Positions 29,271 through 60,531 of a DNA stretch of 64,000 nt are shown piece by piece. Numbering within the stretch: position 1 is the stretch's first letter; the number at the start of each line of letters is the position of its first letter. A model generated the notes under the pieces. It ran no database searches and was not told where the DNA came from. It worked only from the letters and a program-made list of their open reading frames with translations. A program made the position numbers and the translations under genes. Origin of the DNA: Fibrobacterota bacterium (GTDB lineage: Bacteria > Fibrobacterota > Fibrobacteria > UBA11236); NCBI GenBank assembly GCA_947482115.1, contig CANKII010000001.1, positions 372,001 through 436,000 of the forward strand, written 5' to 3'.

Positions 29271-29711
29271 ATGTTAAAGGAATTCAAAGAGTTCGCCCTC
29301 AAGGGCAACGTCATCGACATGAGCGTGGGTATCATCATCGGCGCATCCTTCGGGAAAATCGTTTCCTCTTTTGTTGCGGACATTCTCACACCGCCTCTCG
29401 GATTGCTTTTGGGCCGTGTGGATTTCACCAGCCTGTTCGTCAGCATTTCCGGGAAACAGTATGCCAGTCTCCCCGAGGCCAAGGCGGCGGGGGCGGCCAC
29501 GCTGAATTACGGTCTATTTCTGAACAACATCTTCGATTTCGTGCTGGTAGCCTTCGCTTTGTTCATGCTCATTCGCTGGGTCAATCGGTTGAACAGAGCT
29601 CCGGCACCTGTTCCTACTGCGGCACCCGCCACCAAGGAATGCCCGGAATGCCTGTCGGCCGTGCCCATCATGGCCCGCCGTTGCGCGCATTGCACCAGCA
29701 TCCTGCCGTAG
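29271..29711 (+). CDS. mscL: Large-conductance mechanosensitive channel with C-terminal zinc ribbon
   Basis: Releases solutes on osmotic downshock. 146 aa with GGAGG seven bases before the ATG. TM1 is [20 protein letters not shown], where the family's gate region lies; TM2 is [18 protein letters not shown]. After a Pro/Ala linker the C-terminus carries two CxxC pairs (ECPECLSA and RRCAHCTS), a zinc-ribbon-like tail found in a subset of MscL proteins. The last codon and TAG stop are inside a 38-bp palindrome. Confidence 0.95.
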
Positions 29712-29740
29712 GGGCGAACGGCCGTTCGCCCCTACGGCAG
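29703..29740. repeat. 38-bp perfect palindrome, copy 1 (GTAGGGGCGAA core)
   Basis: Left arm CTGCCGTAGGGGCGAACGG, right arm its exact complement, with no loop. The core GTAGGGGCGAA-N6-TTCGCCCCTAC is shared with the palindrome at 30864-30901. It covers the mscL stop codon and lies between mscL and hisE. As RNA it would form a very stable hairpin followed by GTCCTTTTCT, so it may work as a weak terminator. Confidence 0.9.
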
Positions 29741-30863: not shown

Positions 30864-30901
30864 CCCCGGTAGGGGCGAATAATTATTCGCCCCTACCGGG
30901 G
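30864..30901. repeat. 38-bp perfect palindrome, copy 2 (GTAGGGGCGAA core)
   Basis: Left arm CCCCGGTAGGGGCGAATAA and an exactly complementary right arm. It begins two bases after the hisG stop and ends just before the convergent gene at 30910. The core matches copy 1 at 29703, while the central six bases (TAATTA vs CGGCCG) and outer five bases differ by compensatory changes. It could act as a bidirectional terminator. Confidence 0.9.
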
Positions 30902-49385: not shown

Positions 49386-50498
49386 TTGCCGTCTCCGAGT
49401 CCCATCCGCGTAGCCGTTTTGATGGGGGGCATTTCCCCGGAACATCCTGTCTCTCTCGTTTCCGGCTGCGGTATTCTGGCCAATCTGGATCCGGCCAAGT
49501 ATCAGGGTTTTCCGGTTTTGATTTCCAAAAAAAATGAATGGATGTGGCCGAAAAACGTCGGGGCACGTGGCGCTTCGACTACCCATTCGACAAGCTCAGG
49601 GCGAGCGCTCAGCGACCACGAATTGCCCCTACAGGCCTCAGAAGCAGAAGCCATTTTGCAAAATCCCCCGGCAGATTGGAATCGAATCCAATTCCCTCGT
49701 TTCACATCCTTCCCTGAAGCCGATGTGTTCTTCATCGGTTTGCATGGCATCGGTGGGGAAGACGGTCGTCTACAGGGCTTTCTCGAAATGGCGGGACAAC
49801 CTTTTACGGGAAGCGGCAGCCTCGGCTCTTCGCTGTCCATGGACAAAATCCTGTCCAAGCAATTGTATTCACTGCATGGCATTCCCACTGCACCGTGGAC
49901 CATCCTTTCCCGCGAGGAATTCGGTGAAGCCGGAGCGAAACGGGTGGAAAAAGAAATCGGACTTCCCGCCGTGGTGAAACATCCCACCGGCGGTTCCAGC
50001 ATTGGCGTAGCCGTTGTTCGAACGCATGCGGAACTGATCGAAAGCATTCTGACCATCGGGCAGACCACACCGCGTTTGCTGGTGGAAACTTTTCTTGCCG
50101 GACGTGAATCGACTTGTGGCGTGCTGGAAAGTTTTGATCAAGCGTTGCCTCCCACGGAAATCCGCCCGAACCAAGACGCCTTCTTTTCCTTCGAGGCCAA
50201 ATACCAATCGGGTCGCACGGATGAAATCACACCGGCGGAATTCCCTGCTGAAATTCTGACGGAGATTCAAACGCTGGCGCGCCGCGCTCATGAGGCCTTG
50301 CATCTCTCAGTTTACAGCCGCACCGACTTTATTTGGACTGATAAGGGCCTCTTCGCGTTGGAGACCAACAACCTTCCCGGTTTTACTCCGACTTCCATTC
50401 TGCCGCAACAGGCCACATGCATGGGCATAAGCTATCGCGATTTGGTCTCGCATATTCTCGAGGAAAGCCTAAAACAGTGGCGCGCTCCCTCGGTTTAA
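49386..50498 (+). CDS. ddl: D-alanine--D-alanine ligase with in-frame repeat insertion
   Basis: Makes the D-Ala-D-Ala dipeptide for peptidoglycan. 370 aa from TTG 49386. ATP-grasp motifs: VLMGGISPEHPVSLVSG, the Walker-like FIGLHGIGGEDGRLQGFLE, GSSLSMDKILSK, VVKHPTGGSSIGVAVV, YSRTDFIW and LETNNLPGFTPTSILPQQA. Residues about 62-84 (from GASTTHSTSSGRALSDHELP) do not belong to the family. They are encoded by an inserted palindrome-type repeat that keeps the frame, in a surface loop before the central domain. The enzyme is probably still active. Overlaps tsaB by 22 bp. Confidence 0.93.
   Translation: MPSPSPIRVAVLMGGISPEHPVSLVSGCGILANLDPAKYQGFPVLISKKNEWMWPKNVGARGASTTHSTSSGRALSDHELPLQASEAEAILQNPPADWNRIQFPRFTSFPEADVFFIGLHGIGGEDGRLQGFLEMAGQPFTGSGSLGSSLSMDKILSKQLYSLHGIPTAPWTILSREEFGEAGAKRVEKEIGLPAVVKHPTGGSSIGVAVVRTHAELIESILTIGQTTPRLLVETFLAGRESTCGVLESFDQALPPTEIRPNQDAFFSFEAKYQSGRTDEITPAEFPAEILTEIQTLARRAHEALHLSVYSRTDFIWTDKGLFALETNNLPGFTPTSILPQQATCMGISYRDLVSHILEESLKQWRAPSV
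49569..49635 (+). repeat. Repeat element inserted inside ddl (TTCGACAAGCTCAGGG type)
   Basis: TTCGACAAGCTCAGGG (49586-49601) is identical over 16 bases to 60502-60517, outside any gene. The flanks GCTTCGACTACCC and GAGCGCTCAGCGACC, and the right end AATTGCCCCTAC (reverse of a GTAGGGGCAATT core), resemble the widespread GAGCTTGTCGAA-type and GTAGGGGC-type repeats. The inserted segment is read in frame as STTHSTSSGRALSDHELPLQ. Confidence 0.75.
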
Positions 50499-60494: not shown

Positions 60495-60522
60495 CCGGTC
60501 CTTCGACAAGCTCAGGGACCGG
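60495..60522. repeat. Short palindromic repeat with TTCGACAAGCTCAGGG core
   Basis: CCGGTCC (60495-60501) and GGACCGG (60516-60522) are inverted copies around TTCGACAAGCTCAG. The 16-base core matches the repeat inside ddl (49586-49601). It lies between the LamG gene and the toxin-antitoxin operon, next to the operator, and can form a hairpin after the LamG gene's stop. Confidence 0.75.
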
Positions 60523-60531
60523 GAATCCTTT

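Follow-up and report, generated by a model that had tools for sequence, protein, structure and literature searches.

A 76-bp segment inside the ddl gene of a Fibrobacteria-lineage bacterium is very probably a composite of miniature mobile palindromes of the REP type that were inserted in frame. The gene lies in the window that we analysed (64,000 nt, positions 372001-436000 of contig C1), in a genome of 2.72 Mb that is 99% complete. A first-pass annotation had reported a palindrome-type repeat in frame in this essential-type gene, and the repeat families, with their copy numbers measured against controls, bear this out. It had supposed a single repeat; the segment resolves into three nested palindromes of two families (Table 1). 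The insert belongs to a known kind, the intragenic REPs, and resembles Rickettsia palindromic elements (RPEs) in behaviour without, in all likelihood, being one of them.

The nested palindromes and their host gene

The ddl ORF encodes 370 aa from a TTG start codon. Its product matches the Pfam domains Dala_Dala_lig_N (3e-25) and Dala_Dala_lig_C (3.4e-43) and the TIGR01205 profile (253.6 bits; cut-off 245.65). The AlphaFold model, built from 12 sequences, has a mean pLDDT of 86.7 and was matched by Foldseek to solved Ddl structures (E 7e-35 for P. aeruginosa DdlA).

Between WMWP and LQASEAEAILQNPPADW the protein reads KNVGARGASTTHSTSSGRALSDHELP. We compared this stretch with the Ddl proteins of three congeners (G001, G002 and G003; 64-70% identity to that of the genome under study, G000). 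The congeners have different, shorter stretches in the loop and lack the peptide STTHSTSSGRALS, as expected if the residues are foreign; the range given earlier, about 62-84, shifts to about 58-82. Loop length varies among relatives; the Ddl of G009 (locus L035) carries a tandem RPERPERPERP expansion in the same loop. A contig scan for ddl relatives closer than the congeners returned nothing but the G003 species.

The only segment of the model with pLDDT below 50 comprises residues 61-78, flanked by a strand (51-55) and a helix (84-92), and the insert is thus probably a disordered loop. The placement in a loop proposed by the first-pass annotation agrees with this model and with the poor conservation of the loop in the alignment. 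Judging from its intact conserved columns, the enzyme would stay active with the insert.

Table 1. Positions of the ddl composite, its layers and related features (window coordinates unless a contig is named)
Feature	Position	Strand	Description	Basis
ddl	49386..50498	+	D-alanine--D-alanine ligase, insertion host	ORF list; Pfam/NCBIfam; AlphaFold/Foldseek match to solved Ddl
Nested composite palindrome	49557..49632	+	in frame, 76 bp, ~25 codons	sequence; fold; congeners without it, except a probable decayed REP in G002
Level 1, left arm	49557..49570	+	GTCGGGGCA CGTGG (whole: GTCGGGGCACGTGG)	complementary to 49616-49632
Level 1, right arm	49616..49632	+	CCACGAATTGCCCCTAC (- strand: GTAGGGGCAATTCGTGG)	sequence; family pattern
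Level 2 quasi-palindrome	49571..49617	+	CGCTTCGACTAC...GCTCAGCGACC, in level 1 apex	arrangement recurs at other loci
Level 3	49583..49606	+	CCATTCGACAAGCTCAGGGCGAGC, 24 bp, in level 2 loop between TTCGACTAC and GCTCAG	48 core copies in genome
Second TTCGAC copy	60496..60523	+	CCGGTCC TTCGACAAGCTCAG GGACCGG, apparently intergenic	repeat search
Double-foot GTAG palindrome	29708..29735	+	GTAGGGGCGAACGGCCGTTCGCCCCTAC, complementary flanks ctgcc/ggcag	pattern search; flank analysis
Double-foot GTAG palindrome	30869..30896	+	GTAGGGGCGAATAATTATTCGCCCCTAC, complementary flanks ccccg/cgggg	pattern search; flank analysis
RAYT-like genes with GTAG palindrome, G000	L093 (C1:218482); L101 (C1:564513); L216 (C7); L217 (C10)			
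RAYT-like genes with GTAG palindrome, congeners	L218 (G002); L219 (G003)			

The whole composite folds into one hairpin (-18.7 kcal/mol as DNA, z -3.3) that beats 200 of 200 shuffles; its flanks have no complementarity. The outer layer (level 1) is a decayed 'double-foot' GTAG REP, GTCGGGGCA...TTGCCCCTAC. Its right foot, CTAC, is intact, the left foot has become GTCG, a synonymous Val codon, and the left arm is 3 nt shorter than the right. The family-type end noticed in the first pass is confirmed here: GCCCCTAC at 49625-49632 is the opposite-strand reading of a GTAGGGGC end. Level 2 overlaps the right arm of level 1 by two bases. Level 3 contains TTCGACAAGCTCAGGG (49586-49601), identical to 60502-60517, as had also been stated.

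A role that keeps this hairpin in ddl at the DNA or mRNA level, through pausing, mRNA stability or local supercoiling, in place of mere tolerance, was considered. The folding advantage over shuffles speaks for such a role, and functions of this type have been suggested for other REPs (PMC3733652), but we consider it unlikely, given that the arms at ddl are decayed (the GTCG foot and the 3-nt asymmetry), that an Rfam search gave no match and that congeners G001 and G003 manage without the hairpin.

Near-identical copies of the level 3 24-mer are present at L001, L006 and L008. At these three loci, as well as at L014, L023 and L216, a TTCGAC palindrome sits within the loop of another TTCGAC palindrome, and at L070 and L074 the centre of a GTAG palindrome is filled by a TTCGAC palindrome. 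These repeats thus nest habitually, and the arrangement at ddl is no accident.

The borders of the insertion moved on closer analysis: the interval first proposed, 49569-49635, does contain an insertion, but the composite reaches beyond its left end. Its exact borders are uncertain because the closest relatives compared, the congeners, are only 64-70% identical and the loop varies in length anyway.

The ddl loop of the nearest congener, G002 (GGAGCGGATATTCATCCGCCACTAC), matches that genome's own REP GTAGGGGCGGATTTTAAATCCGCCCCTAC at 21 of 25 bases, which ranks among the best 0.5% of 4,800 background windows, a set that itself includes real REPs. This loop is probably a decayed REP as well, and the outer layer at ddl may thus be older than this species. 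The first-pass annotation had asked whether close relatives have the same residues with unrelated DNA, and the outcome favours its reading. The congeners are without STTHSTSSGRALS, and the only insert residues common to G000 and G002 are PLQ, which coincide with the probable REP foot (CCNCTAC) in G002 too; the shared residues thus appear to represent the foot of a REP and not conserved enzyme.

Two repeat families and RAYT-like transposases

The inner layers belong to a dispersed, multi-copy TTCGAC..GCTCAG family with a common core. The 15-mer TTCGACAAGCTCAGG has 48 copies in G000 (13 exact and 35 with one mismatch; reversed control, 1), and the 24-mer CCATTCGACAAGCTCAGGGC(A/G)AGC recurs within other TTCGAC hairpins. 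Within the window alone the five matches at up to three mismatches are unremarkable, as 7 of 100 shuffles reach five. Copies of the 16-mer number 0-3 per congener and tens in several other members of the class; two class relatives, G031 and G024, have 73 and 37 copies of TTCGACAAGCTCAGGG (at most one mismatch), above most relatives. Flank symmetry beyond the core is weak (4.35 vs 3.52; shuffle maximum 4.17) and comes mostly from composite copies. A literature search for the 15-mer did not find it in print.

The pattern of the outer layer, GTAGGGGC-N(4-34)-GCCCCTAC, occurs 62 times in G000 (control, 0) and 5, 17 and 27 times in the three congeners; four further class members have a few copies and the remaining 53 have none. 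These palindromes are mostly 27-29 bp long, and their interiors differ yet remain self-complementary: of 47 copies, 36 have complementary inner 4-nt arms, drawn from 20 distinct 4-mers, against 7.6% of shuffled pairs. A canonical GTAG REP, with one unpaired GTAG foot, was ruled out, since in the G000 copies GTAG pairs with CTAC at the opposite end. A literature search for GTAGGGGC gave chance matches only.

These counts bear on the possibility that the ddl segment arose by ordinary drift of a length-variable loop and resembles repeats by chance. The varying loop length in relatives, one of them with the RPERPERP expansion, would fit drift; yet the segment is made up of two repeat families, which have 48 and 62 copies where the controls are close to zero, and the 24-mer is found again in other TTCGAC hairpins. 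We regard drift as scarcely credible and count it as already refuted.

Double-foot REPs were described by Quentin et al. (2018; PMC6006769) for subclass 2.4 of the TnpA_REP (RAYT) transposases, with GT[AG]G...C[TC]AC at both ends. In that subclass a REP lies in frame inside tnpA_REP, between the HuH and Y motifs, and insertions in unrelated genes were also noted. An initial search of G000 and its genus with the Pfam profile Y1_Tnp (PF01797) gave zero hits and was read as absence of RAYTs; that profile proved too strict. With the NCBIfam profile REP_Tyr_transpos (NF047646), four RAYT-like genes were recovered from G000; they score below the curated cut-off, although E values reach 1e-16.

All four, together with one gene each in G002 and G003, contain exactly one in-frame GTAG palindrome, located about 34-57 nt past the start of the HUH motif (PNHVHG), with an interior that is self-complementary and different in each gene. 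Three of the four G000 palindromes have an identical copy of 27-29 nt elsewhere in the genome. With GT[AG]G at the 5' end and its reverse complement at the 3' end, compensatory changes in the stem and a REP-bearing transposase gene, the GTAG copies have the features of double-foot REPs; the likeness to subclass 2.4, in the feet paired at both ends and the REP in frame inside the transposase gene, is one of features, not of phylogeny. As both traits have already been described for subclass 2.4, we see here a new occurrence and not a new phenomenon; what differs is the host (a Fibrobacteria lineage), the locus-specific complementary flanks in two species (see below) and the second, nested family. 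Because the RAYT-like genes each carry such a palindrome, a RAYT probably mobilised the GTAG layer at ddl.

The first-pass annotation had likened the insert to the RPEs of Rickettsia. The comparison holds for behaviour, as in-frame palindromes occur in many housekeeping genes in both cases and are tolerated in loops, but probably not for descent. A search of NCBIfam and Pfam with the 28-aa insert peptide (a comparison at the peptide level) returned nothing at E<=10, the ends are of the GTAG type while RPE-4 and RPE-6 of R. conorii fall in the CGTC-tagged class (PMC3733652), and the element is of REP type in a Fibrobacteria lineage with RAYT-like transposase genes. That the insert is an RPE or an RPE descendant is thus very improbable.

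We favour the composite REP insertion, for which the following course of events is proposed. A double-foot REP of the GTAG type, such as RAYT (TnpA_REP) transposases serve, would have entered Ddl in the loop that joins strand 51-55 to helix 84-92. Copies of the TTCGAC..GCTCAG family would then have inserted into the apex of the GTAG hairpin and into each other. The insert may have been kept as the frame stays open and only a disordered loop is added away from the conserved ATP-grasp core. In this scheme the movement of the outer element by a RAYT, the use of apices as targets, the outer-to-inner order and the activity of the enzyme are inferred.

Insertions in other conserved genes

The ddl gene is not a special case. 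The first pass had suggested a search for similar repeat peptides elsewhere in the proteome, and they do recur: in-frame copies were found in ten further conserved proteins, SMC, AroA, QueG, PdxA, EF-Ts, RecN, ProRS, IleRS, PheA and TldD, and most congeners have shorter, unrelated stretches at the insert sites. By sequence comparison, at least eleven conserved genes of G000, ddl included, have such in-frame insertions. Among 78 examined copies, 45 lie within stop-to-stop frames of at least 200 aa, not all of which are verified genes.

Some of the same loops contain palindromes in more than one congener. In the queG loop (L098; L151 in G003; L156 in G002), G003 carries a GTAG palindrome of its own whose interior differs (GTAGGGGCGCAGCAGGCTGCGCCCCTAC), so that one loop of the QueG protein has different palindromes in different congeners. 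At the site of the G000 REP in SMC, G002 (L162) has an 18-bp perfect palindrome of another kind, CGCCGGAAGCTTCCGGCG. Near the start of aroA (L075, L165) a GTAG palindrome is located at seemingly the same place in G000 and G002 (VGAGFNPAPT and VGADFKSAPT, respectively) with different interiors, which points either to one insertion common to both, with compensatory change, or to more than one insertion. It seems that the same protein loops receive, or retain, palindromes more than once.

In-frame GTAG and CGTC REPs in recB, uvrA, dnaE, truB and other housekeeping genes were reported by Di Nocera et al. (2013; PMC3733652), who also found that a few REP families lie inside palindromes of consensus sequence. 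The G000 elements share the location in housekeeping genes and, in part, the surrounding palindromes; however, GTAG is unpaired at one end in those REPs and paired at both ends here, and the surrounding palindromes are locus-specific here. The REPINs of Pseudomonas (Bertels and Rainey 2011; PMC3116915) are likewise miniature palindromic elements tied to RAYT. They are pairs of inverted REPs, whereas the present elements are single palindromes of 27-29 bp, perhaps collapsed pairs as PMC6006769 proposes.

Flank symmetry and target choice

Outside the feet of dispersed GTAG copies the two flanks are complementary to each other, with a different sequence at each locus. The mean uninterrupted run in G000 is 5.77 bp (52 copies); shuffling the partners gives 0.61, and at most 1.29 in 1000 shuffles. 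In a later G000 set the run is 6.02 in 48 dispersed copies vs 0.5 in the four transposase-embedded ones (p 0.001; p 0.0002 with two embedded copies from congeners added). All 15 examined copies in G002 (L226-L236, L165, L171, L202, L209) have runs of 6-10 bp, with mean 8.4 vs 1.43. Nearly every dispersed GTAG element in G000 and G002 is thus centred in a private palindrome, with arms mostly of 6-10 bp. Flank symmetry is missing in G003 (23 copies, 0.83 vs 0.59) and G014 (9 copies, 1.0 vs 0.86), even around identical palindromes such as GTAGGGGCGAATAATTATTCGCCCCTAC.

To see whether a palindromic target was there before insertion, we examined 25 orthologous empty sites in the congeners, which are distant. 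Inverted repeats are not in excess overall (mean arm 4.68 vs 4.26, p 0.09), although the SMC site of G002 has the 18-bp perfect palindrome. The idea that the flank is duplicated in inverted orientation when the element inserts is unsupported in the few cases available: the net insert in AroA and SMC is 27 nt relative to G002 and the element is 28, with no room for an added arm. These net inserts fit better with entry of the element into an inverted repeat that was already present, or with a later in-place conversion that made one arm complementary to the other, than with inverted duplication.

REP transposases cut single-stranded REPs in vitro; to our knowledge, the mode of REP insertion is unsettled and little is known of target choice. 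We tentatively suggest, at somewhat short of an even chance, that double-foot REPs in G000 and G002 are placed exactly in the middle of short inverted repeats specific to each locus, without an added flank copy, which would mean that some TnpA_REP enzymes target the apices of hairpins in single-stranded DNA. If true, apex targeting would also explain palindromes nesting in palindromes, as at ddl, and the targeting rule would differ between close species, being absent in G003 and G014.

The string 'complementar' does not occur in the text of PMC6006769, and outside subscription journals and supplements we found no description of locus-specific REP flanks. As far as checked, these flanks at dispersed copies and the nesting of two families in each other's apices are new.

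With 48 dispersed copies that have flank symmetry, embedded copies that lack it and nesting in apices, G000 makes the target choice of REPs measurable. The scale of in-frame insertion, with SMC, EF-Ts, two tRNA synthetases and Ddl among the hosts, indicates that palindromes avoiding stops in most frames can remodel the loops of core proteins.
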